33,421 nt of DNA from Gammaproteobacteria bacterium. GTDB taxonomy: Bacteria; Pseudomonadota; Gammaproteobacteria; PS1; Pseudothioglobaceae. Location of the stretch: the NCBI GenBank assembly GCA_029941485.1, contig JAPYOZ010000003.1:1-33421 (forward strand), written 5' to 3'. A program made the translations under genes and the position numbers. Shown here piece by piece: positions 878 to 30,160 of this stretch. The notes under the pieces were generated by a model, which had not been told where the DNA came from, searched no databases, and saw only the letters and a list, made by a program, of their open reading frames with translations. The first letter of the stretch is position 1, and each line of letters begins with the position of its first letter.

Positions 878-2172
878 AGGTTCGGTATTAGTTTGTTAAA
901 AATATCATCAAAACTACCGTTAGACATGACCACGAAATGGCCTTGATTGATTTGACCTAGTTGGGCGACAATGTCATCAACAGTGTTAAACAGTGTGTCG
1001 TTCTTAAACACGGTATCGATATCCCAAGTTTGATTTTCTGGACGCAATATTAACACTTGATCAGCATCCTTGAGCGCGTCGACTAAACTTTGTTGGTGAA
1101 TGCCAGATTTCATGGTGTTGGATCTAAGTTCTAATATTGCCACGATATTCTCATTACCAACTTTAGCGCGCAGACCTGACAGTGTGGTGTGGATAGCGGT
1201 TGGGTGATGAGCAAAATCATCGTATAAAGTAATGCGATCAGTTTGGTGTTTAATTTCTAAGCGACGCTTCACTCCTTTAAAGGCGTTGAGTGCTTCACAA
1301 GCCACATCAAAAGACACACCAACATGATGCGCAGCATAGACCGCACCCAAGCCATTTTGCATATTGTGCTCACCCAGTAAATTCCAGTTAACGGTTTGCC
1401 CTTCAATGTCAAATTGAGTACCGTTTTCATTAACACTGAGTTTTGATACAGGCAAAGGCTGTGTCGTTGAAAACGCACCCATGTTTAATACTTCAGTGAT
1501 GGGTTGGTTGTTTTGTGGGTGAATAATCAAACCGTCACTTGGTATGGTGCGGATGAGGTGGTGAAATTGATTTTGAATGTCTTGGAGTGAATCAAAAATA
1601 TCAGCATGGTCAAATTCTAGATTGTTAATGACTAAAGTTTTTGGGTGATAATGGATAAATTTTGAGCGCTTGTCAAAAAAAGCAGTGTCGTATTCGTCGG
1701 CCTCAATGACAAAGAAGTTTGAATCGGTTAGACGCGATGAAACGCCAAAATTCTCTACCACGCCACCAATTAAAAAACTAGGGTTATAACCTGCAGATTC
1801 TAATATCCAAGCGAGCATACTGGCCGTGGTGGTTTTGCCGTGCGTACCAGAAATGGCAAGCACCCATTTATCGCGTAAGACATTTTCACTCAGCCATTGC
1901 GCACCCGAAGTGTAGTTGTATTGTTTGTTTAAAATTTCTTCCACACAAGCATTGCCACGCGACAAGGCATTGCCAATAACAAACACATCAGCTTTAGGCA
2001 TATCAACCACTTCATAACCATGAGTGTAAGTAATGTTTTGTTCGTTGAGTTGAGTACTCATTGGCGGATACACGCCTTGATCTTGCCCAGTAACTGTGTG
2101 GCCGAGTTGTTTAGCAATCAGCGCCAGAGAGCCCATAAAAGTGCCAGCAATACCAAGAATGTGTACGTGCAT
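874..2172 (-). CDS. mpl: UDP-N-acetylmuramate:L-alanyl-gamma-D-glutamyl-meso-diaminopimelate ligase
   Basis: MHVHILGIAGTFMGSLALIAKQLGHTVTGQD, ISGTHGKTTTASMLAWIL and YDDFAHHPTAI motifs; 4-nt ATGA overlap with ubiX. Confidence 0.93.
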   Translation of the reverse strand: MHVHILGIAGTFMGSLALIAKQLGHTVTGQDQGVYPPMSTQLNEQNITYTHGYEVVDMPKADVFVIGNALSRGNACVEEILNKQYNYTSGAQWLSENVLRDKWVLAISGTHGKTTTASMLAWILESAGYNPSFLIGGVVENFGVSSRLTDSNFFVIEADEYDTAFFDKRSKFIHYHPKTLVINNLEFDHADIFDSLQDIQNQFHHLIRTIPSDGLIIHPQNNQPITEVLNMGAFSTTQPLPVSKLSVNENGTQFDIEGQTVNWNLLGEHNMQNGLGAVYAAHHVGVSFDVACEALNAFKGVKRRLEIKHQTDRITLYDDFAHHPTAIHTTLSGLRAKVGNENIVAILELRSNTMKSGIHQQSLVDALKDADQVLILRPENQTWDIDTVFKNDTLFNTVDDIVAQLGQINQGHFVVMSNGSFDDIFNKLIPNL

Positions 2173-11165: not shown

Positions 11166-12482
11166 TTGGAACTATTTGATCGTCAAAAAGATTGGGTTGG
11201 TCAGGGTGAGAGAACGCTACTGGTTTATGTCGAACTTCCTGGCAATAGACACATACACAACGGTTTAGAAGAATTTATAGAGCTGGCTAACTCTTCAGGA
11301 TTGGAGATTATTCAAGCGCTTAAGGTAAATCGAAATATTGCCACTGCTCAGTATTTTATTGGCTCTGGTAAGGTTGAAGAAATAGCCGAACTGGCTAAAG
11401 AAAACGAAATTGAATTGGTGATTTTTGCCCCAGAACTGTCTCCCTCACAAGAAAGAAATTTAGAAAAAAAACTCAACTGCCAAGTGATGGATCGAACGGG
11501 ACTGATCTTGGATATTTTTGCTTTAAGAGCGCAATCATTTGAAGGTAAATTACAAGTTGAATTGGCTCAGCTTCGACATCTATCGACTCGATTAGTGAGA
11601 GGTTGGACCCACCTAGAAAGGCAAAAAGGTGGCATCGGTTTAAGAGGGCCAGGTGAAACACAATTAGAAACCGATAAGCGCTTAATTGCACTTCGCATTA
11701 AAAACATTAGCAAACGTTTAGAAAAAGTACACAAGCAACGTGATCTAGGCAGGAAATCACGTGTTAAAAATGAGCTCCCTATGATTGCTTTGGCAGGCTA
11801 TACCAATGCAGGAAAGTCCACTTTATTCAATGCGCTGACCAAAGCAGAAGTATTCGCAGACGACCGACTCTTTGCTACGTTAGATTCTACCATTAGGAGG
11901 GTAATCTTACCCGCTTCTGGCGAAGCCGTTATTGCCGATACCGTGGGTTTTATTCAAGATCTTCCTCACGATCTTGTTGCTGCGTTTAAATCCACATTAG
12001 AAGAAACTCGGCGTGCCAACGTAATACTTCATGTGGTTGATGCTTCCGATGAGTATCATCATGAAAAAATTGATCAGGTGGAAGACATTATTAATGAGAT
12101 TGACGCAGATGAAATACCCAGTCTCTTGGTAATGAATAAAATTGATCGTTTGGAAAACTTTAAACCAAGAATTGATAGGGACAAGGACGGAAGAATTTAT
12201 CGTGTTTGGGTTTCGGCTCAAACGTTTGATGGGATTGATCTTTTATATCAAACATTGGCTGAACAGCTTAGTGGTATGATGACACGTGCAAGAATACAGC
12301 TTGATGTGAAGGCGGCCTACATTCGTAGTGAAATTTACAATATTGGCTATATACACAATGAAAAGATGGATGATTTTGGGCAGTGGGTACTTGAAATTAA
12401 CGTTACCAACCACTATCTATCTAAGTTATTACAAAAGCAAGGCGTAAAGCTATTATGGGAACAGAAGTCACAACAGAAGTAA
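11166..12482 (+). CDS. hflX: GTPase HflX
   Basis: GGIGLRGPGETQLETDKR, ALAGYTNAGKSTLFNALT, DTVGFIQDLPHDLVAAFKSTLEE; apparent TTG start 5 nt after the clpX stop. Confidence 0.95.
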   Translation: MELFDRQKDWVGQGERTLLVYVELPGNRHIHNGLEEFIELANSSGLEIIQALKVNRNIATAQYFIGSGKVEEIAELAKENEIELVIFAPELSPSQERNLEKKLNCQVMDRTGLILDIFALRAQSFEGKLQVELAQLRHLSTRLVRGWTHLERQKGGIGLRGPGETQLETDKRLIALRIKNISKRLEKVHKQRDLGRKSRVKNELPMIALAGYTNAGKSTLFNALTKAEVFADDRLFATLDSTIRRVILPASGEAVIADTVGFIQDLPHDLVAAFKSTLEETRRANVILHVVDASDEYHHEKIDQVEDIINEIDADEIPSLLVMNKIDRLENFKPRIDRDKDGRIYRVWVSAQTFDGIDLLYQTLAEQLSGMMTRARIQLDVKAAYIRSEIYNIGYIHNEKMDDFGQWVLEINVTNHYLSKLLQKQGVKLLWEQKSQQK

Positions 12483-14794
12483 TCGATTTAAGCAAGGAGC
12501 GGGTTCCATTATTGCCACTTAGAGACGTGGTTGTTTTTCCGCACACAGTGATGCCGCTTTTTGTTGGCAGAAAAACCTCTGTGAATGCAATTACACAGGC
12601 CATGGGCACTAATAAATACATTTTTTTAGTGACTCAAAAAGACGAAAAAATTGAAAACCCAACTAATGACGAGTTGTACAGAGTGGGCACACTGGCCACT
12701 ATTTTACAAATGCTGAAACTACCTGATGGAACTATTAAAGTTCTTGTGGAGGGAGTTAAACGTGCAAAGGTTGAAGAGTTTTTTGATTCTGACGATGGTT
12801 TTAGCGAAGTCTTAGTGAATGATTTTATGCTTGAATCTAGTGAAGACACTGAGATTAAAGCCATGATGCGCCTTGCACTTGAAAGTTTTGAGACTTACAT
12901 TAAACTGAATAAAAAGATACCTGAAGAAGTTGTTAAAGCTTTGCAGGAAATCAGCGATGTGGAGCGTTTTAGTGATGTCATTATTGCTAATTTAAATCTT
13001 AAGATCCATGAAAAACAATCCTTATTAGAGGGCGACAGAGCTAAGGATCGATTGGATAAAATACTGTTGGTTATTCAGGGCGAAATCGATATCTTAAGTG
13101 CTGAAAGGAAGATCCAATCTCGAGTACGCAAGCAAATGGAATCCAATCAAAGGGATTACTATTTAAACGAACAGATGAAATCCATTCAAAAGGAATTGGG
13201 CCAGGCTGAAGATGAAAATGAAATTGAAGACCTTCAATCAAGCATCAATAAAGCGAAAATGCCTAAATTGGTTAAAACTAAAGCACAAAGCGAATTGAAG
13301 AAGCTTTCACGCATGTCGTCGCAGTCTTCTGATGCGTCTATCATTCGCACGTACATTGAAAATTTATGCGATGTGCCGTGGAAGAAAAAAACCATTATTA
13401 ACAAAGACCTTAAGAAAGCACAAAAGATTTTAGATGGTGATCATTATGGTTTAAATAAAGTCAAGGAGCGAATTTTAGAGCACTTAGCTGTACAAACCCG
13501 TGTGACACACAATAAAGCCAATATTTTGTGCCTTGTTGGCCCTCCTGGTGTGGGTAAAACTTCCTTGGGTGAGTCGATTGCCAAAGCGGTTAATCGCAAA
13601 TACGTGCGTATGGCGTTAGGTGGTGTGCGTGATGAGGCTGAAATTCGTGGCCATAGACGTACTTACATTGGCGCAATGCCAGGCTCTATCGTGCAAAAAA
13701 TGCAAAAAGTGAAGGTTAAAAATCCACTGTTTTTACTTGATGAAATTGAAAAAATGGCTTCTGATTACCGAGGCGACCCATCTTCAGCTATGCTAGAAGT
13801 GCTAGATCCTGAGCAAAACCACACGTTTAATGATCACTATTTAGAGGTTGATTACGATCTTTCTCAAGTGATGTTTGTGGCTACGGCTAATTCATTAGAT
13901 TTGCCACAACCGTTGTTAGATCGCATGGAAATTATCGAATTGTCAGGCTACACTGAGGATGAGAAAGTACAAATTGCCAAGCGTCATTTAGTGGCAAAGG
14001 CGATGGAAAACAACGGCATTAAATCAAGCGAGATTGATTTTAAAGATTCAGCGATTTTAGACATTATCCGTTACTATACCCGCGAGGCAGGTGTGCGTAG
14101 TTTGAGCCGTACCATTAGTACAATTTGTCGTAAGGTAGTGAAAGAAGTTGTGCTTAAAAAACGCAAAAGTAGAGCGATTATCAATGTTAAAAGTTTAGCA
14201 AAATATTTAGGGGTTAAAAAATTCCGCTATGGTTTGGCAGAAGAGCACAATCAAGTGGGTGAAGTCACAGGCCTGGCATGGACATCGGTTGGCGGTGATT
14301 TATTAACCATTGAAGCCACTGCTTACAAAGGCAAAGGCAAGCTGAAATACACAGGCCAATTAGGCGATGTGATGAAAGAGTCTATCCAGGCGGCCATGAG
14401 TGTTGTGCGTACGCGTGCCAAAGAGCTAAATATTGATAGCGACTTCCAAAACAAGCTGGATATTCATATTCACGTACCCGATGGCTCTACCCCGAAAGAC
14501 GGGCCAAGTGCAGGCGCGGCAATGTGCACGTCTTTAGTGTCAGTATTAACAGGACGTAAAGTCAAAGCTGATGTGGCCATGACTGGTGAAATTACCCTGC
14601 GTGGTGAAATTACACCGATTGGTGGCCTTAAAGAGAAAATGCTGGCTGCACTTCGCGGCGGTATTAAAACCGTGATTATTCCTGATGATAATGAGCGTGA
14701 ACTTTCTGAAGTTCCTGACAAAATTAAAGGTGAGCTAAACGTGATTAAAGTTAAGTGGATTGACGAGGTGCTGGATATTGCTTTAGAAAAATAA
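12455..14794 (+). CDS. lon: ATP-dependent protease Lon
   Basis: VPLLPLRDVVVFPHTVMPLFVGR; GPPGVGKTSLGESIAKA; catalytic PKDGPSAGAAM. 28-nt overlap with the hflX 3' end. Confidence 0.97.
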   Translation: MGTEVTTEVIDLSKERVPLLPLRDVVVFPHTVMPLFVGRKTSVNAITQAMGTNKYIFLVTQKDEKIENPTNDELYRVGTLATILQMLKLPDGTIKVLVEGVKRAKVEEFFDSDDGFSEVLVNDFMLESSEDTEIKAMMRLALESFETYIKLNKKIPEEVVKALQEISDVERFSDVIIANLNLKIHEKQSLLEGDRAKDRLDKILLVIQGEIDILSAERKIQSRVRKQMESNQRDYYLNEQMKSIQKELGQAEDENEIEDLQSSINKAKMPKLVKTKAQSELKKLSRMSSQSSDASIIRTYIENLCDVPWKKKTIINKDLKKAQKILDGDHYGLNKVKERILEHLAVQTRVTHNKANILCLVGPPGVGKTSLGESIAKAVNRKYVRMALGGVRDEAEIRGHRRTYIGAMPGSIVQKMQKVKVKNPLFLLDEIEKMASDYRGDPSSAMLEVLDPEQNHTFNDHYLEVDYDLSQVMFVATANSLDLPQPLLDRMEIIELSGYTEDEKVQIAKRHLVAKAMENNGIKSSEIDFKDSAILDIIRYYTREAGVRSLSRTISTICRKVVKEVVLKKRKSRAIINVKSLAKYLGVKKFRYGLAEEHNQVGEVTGLAWTSVGGDLLTIEATAYKGKGKLKYTGQLGDVMKESIQAAMSVVRTRAKELNIDSDFQNKLDIHIHVPDGSTPKDGPSAGAAMCTSLVSVLTGRKVKADVAMTGEITLRGEITPIGGLKEKMLAALRGGIKTVIIPDDNERELSEVPDKIKGELNVIKVKWIDEVLDIALEK

Positions 14795-14847: not shown

Positions 14848-15272
14848 CTAAGGTCGAATGTAAGAATAGCCCTGTTGCTGTAGTTCGCCAATATGAACCA
14901 CACCAGAAGGTGTGATGTCTACACCATCTGTTAGTGTTGGAAGATGGCCATTCTTCTTCTTATCTTCTTCTTAAAGCCATTCATAGTATTTTGACAAGCA
15001 CTAAAAGTAATGTCATTCATCGCCATCTTTTCGACACGACTAGAGTTTTTATTGCCAGTGGTTAAAATGCCTAAGCCTGGGCCGTAAGCCACAATTTCCA
15101 CATCAACTTTATCAGCACCGTAGTATTTTTGTAAATTGGCCGCATTATTTAGAACGATTTTTTGAATTCTGGCGTCATTTGTGCTGATTTTAATAACGTA
15201 TTGTGGATTAGCGGCTTGCACGTTTAGTGTGAGTAATGCGAACGTCGCAATACTAAGTAGTATTTTTTTCAT
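14848..15272 (-). pseudogene. Secreted DsrE-like protein, apparently frameshifted
   Basis: ORF 14931-15272 encodes signal peptide plus DsrE-like ...YVIKISTNDARIQKIVLNNAANLQKYYGADKVDVEIVAYGPGLGIL...FSACQNTMNGFKKK then aberrant IRRRMAIFQH*. Another frame downstream encodes NGHLPTLTDGVDITPSGVVHIGELQQQGYSYIRP*, which resembles the usual C-terminus of this family. Confidence 0.75.
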
Positions 15273-15312: not shown

Positions 15313-16623
15313 TCACGATAATTCTACACTTATTTTTTTTAGTTTGGCGTAGTAAAAACCATCAAACTCATGGGTGGGTAGTTGCTGTCTGCCAACAACT
15401 GTTTTAATCCCCCAGTCTAGGTCGATCTTAATTTCACTGACATCATCATGACTGTAAAGAAAGTTAGCCATTTGATCTTCATTCTCGGCTTTTAAAATTG
15501 AACAGGTGGCATATAAAAGCACACCACCTGGCTTTAGCATCTGCCATAAGTTATCAAGAATGGATTTTTGTAATGCCACCAAAGCAGTGATGTCTTTAGG
15601 CTTTCTTAGGAGTTTAATATCAGGATGGCGACGAATAACACCAGTGGCTGAACATGGCGCATCGAGCAGAATTTTATCAAATAATTTACCACCCTTTATG
15701 CCCCCTTGCAGGGTGAACCAATCTTGCACTTGGGCGTTGCCTTGTGATAAAACAATATTTTTAATGTTAAATCGATTAATATTTTCTGCTACACGTTGAA
15801 GTCTCTCTTCATCGCTGTCTAGTGCGACAATAGTTGATTGTGGCTCTAGTTCACTGAGGTGTGTGGCTTTGCCACCAGGTGCAGAGCAGGCGTCTAAAAT
15901 CAACTCGTTGGCTTGTGGATCAAGTAAGTTGGCGGCTAGTTGGGCCGAGCAATCTTGTACGTAGCAAGCGCCTTGTTCAAAACTAGGCAATTTAAATACG
16001 GATACTGCCTCTTCTAGTACCAATGCTTGTGGTGCAATGTCTACTTGGTAAGAGTCAATACCCAATATTGATAATTCTGCTTGATAGTCTTCAAGGTTGT
16101 AATCTGGATGAACACGAATGCTCATGGGTGCTTGAATATTGTTGTTAGCAAATATTTGTTCAAAATAATCAGGGTAATTATTTTTAATTTTTTTAACCAA
16201 CCAACTTGGGTGTGAATAATGAGTTTGTTTTTGTAGGGAGTCTTTTTGCCGATCTACCTCTCTTAAGATGGCGTTTACCAAGCCTTTAGCCCAAACTTTG
16301 TTTAAATCATTTACCACATTAACGGTTTCAAAAATTGCTGCGTGAGTTGCAACATTTGAGTATAAAAGTTGATAAGTACCTAAGAGTAGTAGGCATTGAA
16401 CATCAAGATTGTCTTTTTCTACTGGGTGTTTTAAAAGCTTTGAAACAATATCATTGAGTTGGTGATAAAACCGAATAGTACCAAATACTAAAGACTTAAT
16501 GAGCGATAAGTCTTGATGATCTTGTGGAAATTGAAAGGCTGATAGGGATTGCTTGTTTAATACTACTGAGCAAATTGCCTCTAAGGCAATTGCTCGCGTA
16601 TTGGTACTATTGATATTTTGCAA
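15313..16623 (-). CDS. rsmB: 16S rRNA (cytosine(967)-C(5))-methyltransferase RsmB
   Basis: N-terminal NusB-like domain; VQDCSAQLAANLLDPQ, ILDACSAPGGKATHL, LLDAPCSATGVIRRHPDIK, YATCSI methyltransferase motifs. Confidence 0.94.
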   Translation of the reverse strand: MQNINSTNTRAIALEAICSVVLNKQSLSAFQFPQDHQDLSLIKSLVFGTIRFYHQLNDIVSKLLKHPVEKDNLDVQCLLLLGTYQLLYSNVATHAAIFETVNVVNDLNKVWAKGLVNAILREVDRQKDSLQKQTHYSHPSWLVKKIKNNYPDYFEQIFANNNIQAPMSIRVHPDYNLEDYQAELSILGIDSYQVDIAPQALVLEEAVSVFKLPSFEQGACYVQDCSAQLAANLLDPQANELILDACSAPGGKATHLSELEPQSTIVALDSDEERLQRVAENINRFNIKNIVLSQGNAQVQDWFTLQGGIKGGKLFDKILLDAPCSATGVIRRHPDIKLLRKPKDITALVALQKSILDNLWQMLKPGGVLLYATCSILKAENEDQMANFLYSHDDVSEIKIDLDWGIKTVVGRQQLPTHEFDGFYYAKLKKISVELS

Positions 16624-17329
16624 GTGAGCGTTTTAGTTCTTTTAATAACTCTTTTGGCTTAACATAACCAGGGATGTGGTCACCATTTTCAAAGAAGATA
16701 AATGGCGTGCCTGTGACGTTGAGTTTTTTTGCCAGCACTAAGTGATCAATGACTGGGTTTTCGCATTTATTGAGTGGATTATCTTTTTGTATCATACCTC
16801 TGTCCATTGCTTGTTTTTGATCGTCGGCACACCAGATAGCAACGGAGCGGTAGTAGGATTTAGTGTTTACACCCGAGCGTGGAAAAGCTAAATACTTCAT
16901 GGTAATGCCTGATTTATTGAGTGCGACAATGTCTTTGTGTAATTGACGGCAGAAAGGGCAATCCACATCAGTGAACACGTTGATGATGTATTTCTCATCA
17001 TCGGCTTTGTAGATAACTTTTTCATTGTCAGTTGTTGTGGCAAGTATTTCTTTGGCTAAACTCGATACTCTAGATTGAGTAAGGTTTTTGCGTGTTTTTA
17101 AATCAATCACTTCACCTTGAGACAAATAACGACCATCTTCCGAGATGTAGATAACGTCTAATCTTGGCTCTCTTAGAATAACCTCGTACAAGCCTAAAAA
17201 TGGTGTGGGGCTAATGTCTTCTTTAGTAACATTAGGAAAGTAAGCGTTAAGACCTTTGACAATGTCATTTGTATCGGCTAAAACATTGTTTGAAAAAATG
17301 GTTAATAAAATAAATAATGACTTTAACAT
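16607..17329 (-). CDS. dsbC: Thiol:disulfide interchange protein DsbC
   Basis: Signal peptide, VFTDVDCPFCRQLHKDI (CxxC), GTPFIFFENGDHIPGY. Confidence 0.9.
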   Translation of the reverse strand: MLKSLFILLTIFSNNVLADTNDIVKGLNAYFPNVTKEDISPTPFLGLYEVILREPRLDVIYISEDGRYLSQGEVIDLKTRKNLTQSRVSSLAKEILATTTDNEKVIYKADDEKYIINVFTDVDCPFCRQLHKDIVALNKSGITMKYLAFPRSGVNTKSYYRSVAIWCADDQKQAMDRGMIQKDNPLNKCENPVIDHLVLAKKLNVTGTPFIFFENGDHIPGYVKPKELLKELKRSLAKYQ

Positions 17330-20172: not shown

Positions 20173-20826
20173 TTAGAAGTCGCCCTCTGCGCCACCATTT
20201 TGAATACGAGTAATCACACGTTGAACCTCTAGTGCTTTGTCAAGCAAGTAGTCTGGTAATGGTGCACCACCGTAAATCATTGCATTCATGTCTAATGTGT
20301 AAATCCATCTTTGACCTTGCTTATCTTCAATCAACGCTAATCGACAAGGTAAGTAAGCCGAGAATGCATCTGAATGCTCAACCATCGTCATCGCAGTACG
20401 CGGTGCACAGTATTGGTAAATTTTAAGGAATCTTTGAGCCTTGAAATCTGCATGTCCTTTTGTTACACCAGGAGCATTAGTTTGTAATTCAACCATTTCT
20501 GATAAAGGCAACATGCCTACAGAGCGGATGCCTTCTTCAGTTGCGATACTTTCCATTGCTTCTTCAACATCTTCGTTAGTGACATCATCAGCCACCTTAA
20601 CACGTACAATTGAGGCCATGGTGATATCACCAGTCTCTAATAAAGTGTTGGCCATTGGCATATAAACTTTAGCCATCGATTCTGGATGTAGTGTTGGTGA
20701 GATTACCTCACTAATAATTTTTCCAGTAACGCCATTATATTTTACTTGTAGTGATACGCCGTAATAAATAGCGATTGCACCGATAACAATCAGCACCCAC
20801 TTAACTATATTAATAACTCCACTCAT
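20173..20826 (-). CDS. Membrane-anchored DUF302-domain protein
   Basis: N-terminal TM segment (IVKWVLIVIGAIAIYYGVSL), C-terminal DUF302-like ...FLKIYQYCAPRTAMTMVEHSDAFSAYLPCRLALIEDKQGQRWIYTLDMNAMIYGGAPLP. Confidence 0.8.
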   Translation of the reverse strand: MSGVINIVKWVLIVIGAIAIYYGVSLQVKYNGVTGKIISEVISPTLHPESMAKVYMPMANTLLETGDITMASIVRVKVADDVTNEDVEEAMESIATEEGIRSVGMLPLSEMVELQTNAPGVTKGHADFKAQRFLKIYQYCAPRTAMTMVEHSDAFSAYLPCRLALIEDKQGQRWIYTLDMNAMIYGGAPLPDYLLDKALEVQRVITRIQNGGAEGDF

Positions 20827-20909: not shown

Positions 20910-21329
20910 CTAAACTCTTAAGCCGTTAAAGACGATATTGGTTAGGCTGACCACGCCGACAATCTTGCCATTGTCTAATACTGGGCAACGAGACAAGCCA
21001 AAATTCGTGAGTAACTCCGCACAATAACGAATGTCCATGTCAGGATGAACCGACATGACAGGCTTGTTCATAATTTCATAAATATTAACTCGATCAAGTG
21101 CGCGGTCTTTTGCAATTACTTTGGATGCAATATCGGCAATCAATACCACCCCATATTCATCGTAACCATGAGATTTTTCAACTAAGAGCATTTTAGTTTT
21201 TTTGTGTTGCATGTCACTCAATGCATTGTGAACAGTGCATTTACTGTCCACAATATCAACTTGTGTCCACATTACGTCTTTAACTAAAGTTGGTGCTGTC
21301 TGTTTAGACTTCTGTGTATCGTTTGTCAT
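20910..21329 (-). CDS. CBS-domain protein (tandem CBS pair)
   Basis: VKDVMWTQVDIVDSKCTVHNALSDMQHKKTKMLLVE... and NKPVMSVHPDMDIRYCAELLTNFGLSRCPVLDNGKIVGVVSLTNIV. Confidence 0.88.
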   Translation of the reverse strand: MTNDTQKSKQTAPTLVKDVMWTQVDIVDSKCTVHNALSDMQHKKTKMLLVEKSHGYDEYGVVLIADIASKVIAKDRALDRVNIYEIMNKPVMSVHPDMDIRYCAELLTNFGLSRCPVLDNGKIVGVVSLTNIVFNGLRV

Positions 21330-21676
21330 ATCTTTTCCTCCACGGTGTTTTCTAGTGCTTCTATTTGATGCATTATCCCAACTGCATCCTCTACATCAAT
21401 TTGAAAAGCAATTCCTTCTTTGGCATTGCTTTCAAAATCTCCTGCCTTGGCAACACTTTCTAAAATAGCTCTAGCAAGGTGTTGTTCGACAAGTAGTAAT
21501 AATACGTCTCTTGGTGTTTCTAGGCTTAACCCTAGAAATGTTTTGGTGTGTTCGAGTCCTTCACCTCTGGCCTGAGAGATAATGGTCGACCCAGTTGCGC
21601 CTTCTTGTCTGGCCGCTTCAAGGATACGGTCAGTTTTATCGCTGTCAACAAAGGCAATGATTAGTTTGAAATGCAT
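21326..21676 (-). CDS. P-II-like regulatory protein
   Basis: Length and pattern match the PII fold: FKLIIAFVDSDKTDRILEAARQEGATGSTIISQARG...LLLLVEQHLARAILESVAKAGDFESNAKEGIAFQIDVEDAVGI. T-loop region shorter than classical GlnB/GlnK. Confidence 0.8.
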   Translation of the reverse strand: MHFKLIIAFVDSDKTDRILEAARQEGATGSTIISQARGEGLEHTKTFLGLSLETPRDVLLLLVEQHLARAILESVAKAGDFESNAKEGIAFQIDVEDAVGIMHQIEALENTVEEKI

Positions 21677-21688
21677 GATTCCTCCTTT

Positions 21689-22444
21689 TTATTGTTCATG
21701 TTTTGTTTGTGGTTCTTTAGGGTTAAGAAATTTACTCAGTTGCACATAGGCCATCACGCTTATGATTGGGAATAAAGAAGCAAAGGCAATAAGGCCAAAT
21801 CCATCAATGAGCGGATTTCTACCCTCGATGGTACTTGAGAGACCCAATCCTAATGCTACAATGATTGGCACAGTAACAATGGACGTGGTCACACCGCCTG
21901 AATCGTAAGCTAAAGCAATGATGTTTTTAGATGAAAAATAAGTTTGCATTAGTACTACCATATAACCACCAATGATAAACCAATGCAGTGGCAATCCTGT
22001 AACAATTCTAAAACTCCCTAATGCAATACCAATCGCCACGCCAATTGCCACAACAATTCGTAGTGGCCAAATTTTGATAAATCCACCTGAAACTTGGTTG
22101 GCCTTAATAGCAACGGCTAACAATGAAGGTTCGGCAATGGTGGTGGCAAATCCGATACTGGCAGCAAAAATATAAACCCAATAATAATTTGTCCAATGAG
22201 TGTTATTACCAATAAAATTTTGATCAGTGAGTTGCACTGCCATTAATTTTCCTAATGGAAATAAAGCTTTTTCAAGGCCCATTATCAACAGTGTTAGGCC
22301 AATCCAAACCAAGATAAAACCAACAATAATGCGCTTTACTTGAGGTATTTTTTGTTTTAAGATGATGCTTTGAAAGCCGAACAATACTAAGGCAATAGGA
22401 GCAACGTCCCAAAATATCTCAATGAATGGCTGTAGTAAGTTCAT
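21689..22444 (-). CDS. DUF1538-family integral membrane protein (paralogue B)
   Basis: Multiple TM segments; [14 protein letters not shown] and [49 protein letters not shown]. Confidence 0.78.
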
Positions 22445-23172
22445 TGCAAAATCCCGAATATCATGACGGCAATGATGGGCAATAATGAAGCGATGGCAAT
22501 TAGGCCAAAGCCGTCTGTAAGTGGGTTGCGTTCACGAATACTGCTACTTAACCCTACTCCTAGTGCAGTCAACAGAGGCACAGTAATTGGCCCTGTGGTT
22601 ACACCACCAGAATCATAAGCGATGCCAATGATGAAGTCTGGCGCAAAAAAAGTGGTAATAATAACCAGTAAATAGCCGCCAATAATTAACCGATATATTG
22701 GCCAACCTTTCAAAATTTTTAGCACCCCAATAACGACGGCAACTCCAACGGATATGGCCACGGTGTATCTTAAGGTTTGCGCGTAATGATTAAGTTGTGT
22801 TTGGTCATGGATAATGCCACCGTGTTGTGCAACTTTGGCCGCTTCGTTAGCCATTACAATCAGGTCTGGCTCTGCCACGGTTACTCCGAAACCGAGCGCG
22901 AAGGAAAAGATAAGTAGCCAAGCAACCGAGCCTTTTTTTACAAAGGCGTACGCCAGTGTTTCACCGATAGGGAATAGACCCAGTTCAAGGCCGTAGATAA
23001 ATAAAGTTAATCCTAATAGAATAAACACAGTGCCAAGCATAATTTCAGCTAAATTGGGTATGTTTTGCTGCAGAACTACAATTTGAAAAAAAGCAATCAC
23101 CAGTACAATAGGGGTTAAACCCTTTGCGCTATTAGTTAAATTGTTAATAAACTGCTGAACAGTTTTTTGCAT
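22441..23172 (-). CDS. DUF1538-family integral membrane protein (paralogue A)
   Basis: [14 protein letters not shown] and [49 protein letters not shown], paralogous to the downstream gene; ATGA overlap with it. Confidence 0.78.
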
Positions 23173-23227: not shown

Positions 23228-25021
23228 ATGAGTAACGTCGTATTAATTAATGGAAAAAAACAATCAAGGTTGAGCGTGTTTAATCGTGCCATACAGTTTG
23301 GAGATGGTTTATTTGAGACTTGTTTGGTAAAAGATGGAAAGCTGTTATTTTGGCCTCAGCATTTTTCTAGATTGGAAAAAGGGCGTAAAAAATTAAAAAT
23401 TAATCAAGTTGAGTCAGCACTATGGCTTAAAGATGTGGCTAAGGCACTGTCTATTTCTAAGCTCGATAACGCAATTGTAAAAATTATTCTTTCTCGCGGG
23501 GAAAGTCTAAGAGGTTATGGATTTGATAAAAGCATACTGCCCACTCGAATTGTTCTTGTTGCTAACGTCCCTGATCAGATCCCAGAACAATATTCATTAA
23601 CATTATGTCAAAGCGGTTATGCAACAAATCGATCATTGGCAGGCATTAAACATTGCAATAGGCTTGAACAGGTGCTGGCCAGATCAGACATGAGTGCCAA
23701 TGAATGCATTATGTTGGATGAAAATGCTTGTGTTATTTCCACAACGCAAGCCAATATTTTTGCGATTAAATCAGGCACTCTATTGACACCGTCTTTAGAT
23801 GAGTGCGGTATCGAAGGTACTCGGCGTGAGATTGTTCTTCAAATTGCTCGTGAGTTGAGTTTGCAAGTTGAAGTGGGCACATTATCCATTGCTGAATTAT
23901 TAGAAGCCGATGAAGTGTTTATCAGCAATAGTGTAATTGGCCTTAAGTCAGTTAGTCGTATCAATGAGCAGTCTTTTGATTTACACACAACCACTGAAAA
24001 AATTAAACACGCTTTCGTGTCTTTGCAAAACATTAGTGGCTCATCGCAAACTTTTAAATCAAAAAATCGTATTCTAGGCTGGATTGCCGTATTTACCGTG
24101 TTTGTTATTGTTGGATGGCTTTATTCAGTCAAAGACGTGCAGGTGAATAAGTCAACAATTTATCGGTTGTCTTCAGGATCAACCATTCACACAATTGCCA
24201 CTGAATTGGAAAATTTGAATTACATTCAATCCAGTCGTTATTTCATTTTTTTGGCTAAATTACTTAAATTAGACGATCAGTTAAAATTTGGTTATTACGA
24301 ACTAACGCCCAACATGAGTCTTAATACGTTGCTTGATAATTTTTCCTTAGCTACGGTTGCCACAAGACAAATAACCCTTATTGAAGGGAAAACAATTCAA
24401 GATTATTATCAGCAATTAAGTAATAATTCAGTTCTTGAACATCGGAGTAATTTTTATCAAATTATGAGCCTACTTAACATTAGCCCTCCTTATGAGGGAA
24501 ATTTTTGGCCAGATACTTATCGGGTTAATTATGGAGATAGCGTGCTTAGTGTTTTAAAAAGAGCCAACAAAATAATGCAGGAAAAGCTCAACACTGCATG
24601 GCAAGGCAGGCAAAAAAATTTAGTTTTAAAAAATGCGGATGAGGTATTAATTCTAGCTTCTTTGATTGAAAAAGAAACCGCGCATCACGAAGAAAAATCT
24701 CAAATTGCAGGTGTTTTTATGAATCGTTTGCAAAAAGGCATGCGTCTGCAGACCGACCCTAGCGTAATCTACGCTTTAGGAAAAAACTATCGTGGCCGAT
24801 TAAGTAAGAAAGATTTGAGCATCAATAGTCCTTACAACACTTATCGAAATAAAGGCTTGCCACCTAGTGCTATTGGTTCAGTGGGTTATGAATCATTAAA
24901 TGCAGCCACCCATCCGCTTGCAACTGAGGCACTTTATTTTGTTTCAAAAAAAGATGGTACGCATGCTTTTGCTAAAACTTATCAACAACATAGACGCAAT
25001 ATCAAAAAATATTTAAATTAA
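23228..25021 (+). CDS. Fusion: aminodeoxychorismate lyase (PabC) - endolytic murein transglycosylase (MltG/YceG)
   Basis: Residues ~1-265 PabC-like (FNRAIQFGDGLFETCLVKDG, LAGIKHCNRLEQVLARSD, STTQANIFAI); TM ILGWIAVFTVFVIVGWLYS; then MltG-like (GNFWPDTYRV, ILASLIEKETAHHEEKSQIAGVFMNRLQKGMRLQTDPSVIYALG, YNTYRNKGLPPSAIGSVG). Confidence 0.9.
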   Translation: MSNVVLINGKKQSRLSVFNRAIQFGDGLFETCLVKDGKLLFWPQHFSRLEKGRKKLKINQVESALWLKDVAKALSISKLDNAIVKIILSRGESLRGYGFDKSILPTRIVLVANVPDQIPEQYSLTLCQSGYATNRSLAGIKHCNRLEQVLARSDMSANECIMLDENACVISTTQANIFAIKSGTLLTPSLDECGIEGTRREIVLQIARELSLQVEVGTLSIAELLEADEVFISNSVIGLKSVSRINEQSFDLHTTTEKIKHAFVSLQNISGSSQTFKSKNRILGWIAVFTVFVIVGWLYSVKDVQVNKSTIYRLSSGSTIHTIATELENLNYIQSSRYFIFLAKLLKLDDQLKFGYYELTPNMSLNTLLDNFSLATVATRQITLIEGKTIQDYYQQLSNNSVLEHRSNFYQIMSLLNISPPYEGNFWPDTYRVNYGDSVLSVLKRANKIMQEKLNTAWQGRQKNLVLKNADEVLILASLIEKETAHHEEKSQIAGVFMNRLQKGMRLQTDPSVIYALGKNYRGRLSKKDLSINSPYNTYRNKGLPPSAIGSVGYESLNAATHPLATEALYFVSKKDGTHAFAKTYQQHRRNIKKYLN

Positions 25022-29831: not shown

Positions 29832-30056
29832 TTAAACTTTCTCAATAGTGAAAACGTATTTACCACCGTCTTCAACATTAGAAATTAATTTGTTGCCAGT
29901 TTGATTGCAGAATGCTTCAATGTCTTTTACAGAACCAGCATCTGTTGAAATAACCTCTAAGACTTGACCAGCGCTCATTTTACTTAGTTCTTTTTTAGTT
30001 TTTAAAATTGGAAGTGGGCAGTTTAAGCCTGATGCATCTAAAGTTTGGTCAGCCAT
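29832..30056 (-). CDS. tusA: Sulfurtransferase TusA family protein
   Basis: MADQTLDASGLNCPLPILKTKKEL (CPxP); start at 30056 with aaggagct RBS; the track start at 30140 is probably too long. Confidence 0.93.
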   Translation of the reverse strand: MADQTLDASGLNCPLPILKTKKELSKMSAGQVLEVISTDAGSVKDIEAFCNQTGNKLISNVEDGGKYVFTIEKV

Positions 30057-30160
30057 GGTAAGCTCCTTGTGTAATTTAATTTGAAAAAACATATTAGAAA
30101 AAACTAATAAGTCTGTGTATTTTAATCGTTCACAGGCCAATAGTCAAATATAATGACTTC

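Follow-up and report, generated by a model that had tools for sequence, protein, structure and literature searches.

A frameshifting 11-bp tandem duplication and the probable recent inactivation of a secreted DsrE-like gene in a Candidatus Thioglobus-related gammaproteobacterium

A gene for a secreted DsrE-like protein, the only copy of its type in the draft genome (908 kb, 73 contigs, estimated 82% complete) of a marine-type, sulfur-oxidising gammaproteobacterium, is interrupted by a perfect tandem duplication of 11 bp, and is best regarded as having suffered a recent loss of function, being either an early-stage pseudogene or a segregating null allele, a reading to which we give a probability of about three in four. 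The gene lies in the window analysed here, a stretch of 33,421 nucleotides from contig C3 (Table 1). The duplication places the C-terminal quarter of the gene out of frame, and the expected product would be a 113-aa protein in which ten foreign residues stand in place of the final two beta-strands and final helix of the DsrE fold. The frame is disrupted relative to intact orthologues and conserved parts are lost, the pattern by which a pseudogene is recognised.

Table 1. Features at and around the frame-split DsrE-like gene (positions in the window).
Feature	Position	Strand	Remarks
DsrE-like gene, frame-split	14848-15272	-	putative signal peptide at start
Called ORF, 113 aa	14931..15272	-	putative signal peptide; DsrE-like residues 1 to ~103; 10 off-frame residues (IRRRMAIFQH); TAA
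11-bp unit TAAGAAGAAGA, first copy in coding-strand order	14963..14973	-	
11-bp unit TAAGAAGAAGA, second copy	14952..14962	-	frame-shifting perfect tandem duplication
Displaced C-terminal coding part, other frame	14848..14961	-	KKKNGHLPTLTDGVDITPSGVVHIGELQQQGYSYIRP, then TAG
RsmB-like 16S rRNA methyltransferase gene (presumed name)	15313..16623	-	intact; upstream neighbour
DsbC-like periplasmic disulfide isomerase gene	16607..17329	-	PF10411, PF13098
Lon-type protease gene (presumed name)	12455..14794	+	convergent neighbour

The called ORF opens with a signal-peptide-like stretch, MKKILLSIATFALLTLNVQA, and ends in ...NTMNGFKKKIRRRMAIFQH followed by its stop codon, and across the break the coding strand is GGCTTTAAGAAGAAGATAAGAAGAAGAATGGCCATC; the ORF end and the sequence at the break are exactly as given in the first-pass annotation of this DNA. 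After the break the other frame reads DKKKNGHLPTLTDGVDITPSGVVHIGELQQQGYSYIRP and is open as far as its terminal TAG (14850..14848). Compared codon by codon, the relatives have GGC TTT AAG AAA AAG AAA GGT CAT or similar at this tract, and the window has GGCTT-TAAGAAGAAGA-TAAGAAGAAGA-ATGGCCAT. The net change is thus +11 bp (+2 modulo 3), by exact duplication of the 11-bp unit, and the earlier proposal of a loss of 1 nt or a gain of 2 nt had the size right modulo 3 only. The extra 11 bp are absent from all of the approximately 30 homologues compared. Within the window the tandem is the sole exact non-simple duplication of at least 8 bp, and no such duplication reaching 11 bp appeared in ten order-1 Markov resamples of the window. 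A further 200 kb of the genome, taken as ten stretches of 20 kb, yielded a handful of exact duplications of 8-12 bp, the longest of which, at 12 bp, was the only one to reach 11 bp. Replication slippage or misalignment in the AAG-rich lysine tract would most simply account for the duplication, and we infer slippage as its cause.

The displaced frame is the natural continuation of the gene. The closest orthologues are 82-89% identical to the window ORF, with the alignment extending only to residue 103-104, after which they continue in one frame to ...GHFPKLTDGVSITPSGVVRIGELQQQGYSYIRP, and intact relatives in general read through the break into ...PSGVVRIGELQQQGYSYIRP. The window's downstream frame is 88% identical to the orthologue C-terminus over 33 aa, in agreement with its earlier description as a DsrE-like C-terminus, and since about 20 intact homologues cross the break point in a single frame into this same C-terminus, the second frame in the window is not a chance ORF. 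The split would have been refuted if homologues naturally ended at MAIFQH or if the downstream frame were unrelated to DsrE-like C-termini; none of the homologues compared ends there, and homology of the downstream frame is plain. The nearest homologues come from same-family genomes, and the named records that carry the gene belong to Candidatus Thioglobus and to uncultured Gammaproteobacteria. Secreted DsrE-like proteins (PF02635) of Thioglobus-type and other sulfur-oxidising Gammaproteobacteria share this C-terminus and the gene order lon-dsrE-rsmB, which is common to the window and its relatives, and the window copy differs from them by the 11-bp duplication that puts the C-terminus out of frame. 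Around distant homologues the genomic context differs, and no conserved partner gene was found there. We also weighed, and rejected, a separate translation of the C-terminal part, since the displaced frame lacks an ATG and offers a single in-frame GTG, far inside the domain. A literature search returned nothing specific on the secreted DsrE-like gene in this clade.

Membership in the DsrE family is clear for the intact gene, for which an orthologue (L003) scores 28.0 bits against Pfam DsrE (PF02635), above the gathering cut-off of 22.7, and with this match, and a downstream frame that is the family C-terminus, the first-pass account of a DsrE-family gene that looks secreted and is split by a frameshift within a tract rich in AAG is right. 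The 113-aa window ORF itself has no Pfam match at E values up to 1, its homology being pairwise to orthologues only, and the displaced 38 aa match positions 91-115 of the DsrE profile weakly (12.6 bits, E 0.16). An AlphaFold2 model of the intact orthologue (mean pLDDT 91.6) shows the alpha/beta DsrE fold, and beyond the break this model places a strand (114-117), a helix (120-129) and a second strand (133-135); the family-invariant residues G120, V121, R123, I124, L127 and P137 fall in the lost part. Given the strands and helix that are missing by this model, and the Pfam match that the intact orthologue has and the truncated ORF does not, the 113-aa product is most likely non-functional. What the ORF keeps, upstream of the break, is the putative catalytic cysteine motif FSACQNTM, the Cys of FSAC-NT being invariant among 23 homologues. 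The modelled fold and this conserved cysteine together suggest that the intact protein may serve as a periplasmic sulfur carrier.

The DsrE-fold proteins MTH1491 (PDB 1L1S) and ST0148 (PDB 2PD2) are the closest solved structures in sequence-profile searches (E 4e-18 and 2e-8) as well as in fold searches (E 7e-11 and 3e-7), with a TM(target) of 0.94 to 1L1S for the intact-orthologue model in Foldseek. Both were deposited without an assigned function, and the matched chains start at the mature domain and have no signal peptide. The DsrEFH complex of A. vinosum, for which a role in sulfur transfer has been described (PMC13047784), has the same general fold, at a weaker match (Foldseek E 6e-4), and a conserved cysteine; unlike the secreted protein of the window type, however, DsrEFH is a cytoplasmic heterohexamer, and the identity is only about 16%. 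A better match to DsrEFH in the window genome is a separate DsrE-family pair encoded on contig C43. Elsewhere in the window a gene for a DsrE_2-family protein (PF13686; 29291-29806, minus strand) adjoins one for a TusA-family sulfurtransferase (29832-30140, minus strand), and these neighbours are probably a cytoplasmic sulfur-trafficking pair.

Selection has left its marks on both sides of the break. Against close relatives, dN/dS (Nei-Gojobori) is 0.03-0.12 for the upstream part and 0.05-0.14 for the downstream part, the same range as among the close relatives themselves (medians 0.06 and 0.07), ratios that are rough because many pairs are close to saturation at synonymous sites. Purifying selection on both halves implies that the window gene was functional until recently and that the break is recent, and no second disabling mutation was seen in this copy. 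Where alignment columns are otherwise invariant across 11 close relatives, the window copy has six private replacements, against zero to two in each relative, and in a leave-one-out comparison with 23 diverse homologues it departs from two invariant residues (Q to K and R to H), no homologue departing from more than one. These replacements are a weak hint of relaxed constraint on the window copy, a signal that comes from few sites and is biased in that the window alone represents its genus there.

Within the family, a dsrE match is present in 32 of 83 genomes (21 of the 49 of good quality), and in at least 11 genomes (L070, L071, L073, L075, L077-L080, L084-L086) lon adjoins rsmB with no dsrE match between them. 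Three family members with single-contig assemblies (L041, L043 and L021) have independently broken dsrE genes at the same place, with a single frameshift in L041 and several lesions in each of the other two. Taken together, this suggests that the secreted DsrE-like gene is dispensable and repeatedly lost in this Candidatus Thioglobus-related family. The process resembles that by which bacterial pseudogenes arise from short tandem duplications in genome-reducing lineages, where likewise a single recent frameshifting duplication affects a dispensable gene, and broken orthologues likewise occur in further family members with small genomes; we see no notable difference between the two cases. In the one same-genus genome compared (85% complete), an unrelated gene follows rsmB and no copy of dsrE was detected, although the missing part of that genome may hold one. 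The L041 frameshift (1395-1815, minus strand, in the single-contig genome G082) is recent and independent, and the remaining C-terminus is intact in another frame. A separate observation concerns rsmB: in two genus g2 genomes, each a single contig (G081 and G084; L087-L088 and L091-L093), it is represented by short, stop-containing pieces and appears decayed.

Three readings of the break had been offered at the outset, a recent pseudogene, a sequencing or assembly error and a slippage-prone switch, of which the recent pseudogene is the best supported. The second, under which the gene is intact in the population and the extra 11 bp stem from sequencing or assembly or from a minority strain, is possible and in our judgement unlikely. 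An incomplete draft in many contigs may be wrong at any one place, and the strong purifying selection that has long acted on each half, together with the lack of any further disabling mutation, would suit such an artefact. A clean and perfect 22-bp tandem, however, is unlike errors of the homopolymer type and is shorter than the k-mers usually applied to short reads, both points against an artefact, and among genes with homologues in the compared stretches no other frameshift was found in the window and ten 20-kb stretches (about 233 kb), which speaks against a generally error-ridden assembly although not against one local error. That dsrE is repeatedly broken or lost in related genomes, single-contig ones included, makes a real lesion plausible, and the allele is probably real in the cell.

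The switch, in which gain or loss of one 11-bp unit turns the protein on or off by phase variation, is disfavoured and in our view very improbable. The repeat is indeed a tandem inside a coding region and its unit length is not a multiple of three, but phase variation is poorly served by just two copies of so long a unit, no homologue has a repeat at this tract, the product is putatively a sulfur carrier of the periplasm and not a surface antigen, and the family loses the gene outright. Were it true, a secreted sulfur-carrier protein would be switched reversibly in a natural population by the gain or loss of one unit. Slightly harder still to credit is a C-terminally truncated variant that functions with its new tail: the retention of FSACQNTM would allow it, yet two strands and a helix with family-invariant residues are gone and no homologue ends at that point. 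Least probable is the restoration of a full-length protein by programmed ribosomal frameshifting or transcriptional slippage, to which the purifying selection kept in the downstream frame and the AAG-rich tract might be thought to point. Sequence inspection found neither an X_XXY_YYZ heptamer nor a long homopolymer between the two frames, the homologues are single-frame and need no frameshift, and the RNA fold of the region is unremarkable (z = -1.7); programmed frameshifting was rejected on the absence of a slippery site and the single-frame homologues.

If the window gene is indeed a recently inactivated copy, it provides a small and clear example of how the decay of a dispensable gene begins in a small-genome sulfur oxidiser, with one duplication in place and the signatures of selection still intact. 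Members of the family can apparently do without the secreted DsrE-like protein, and any role proposed for it in sulfur trafficking has to allow for this. Annotators should flag the called 113-aa ORF as belonging to a frameshifted gene.

Elsewhere in the window, a 597-aa ORF (23228-25021, plus strand) fuses a PabC-like aminotransferase class IV domain with one of the YceG/MltG type, and this fusion is full length in four of the five relatives checked, the match in G024 being to the first half only. A run of small genes includes those for a DUF302 protein (20173-20826, minus strand) and a P-II-like protein (21326-21676, minus strand), together with two short putative membrane proteins (21689-23172).
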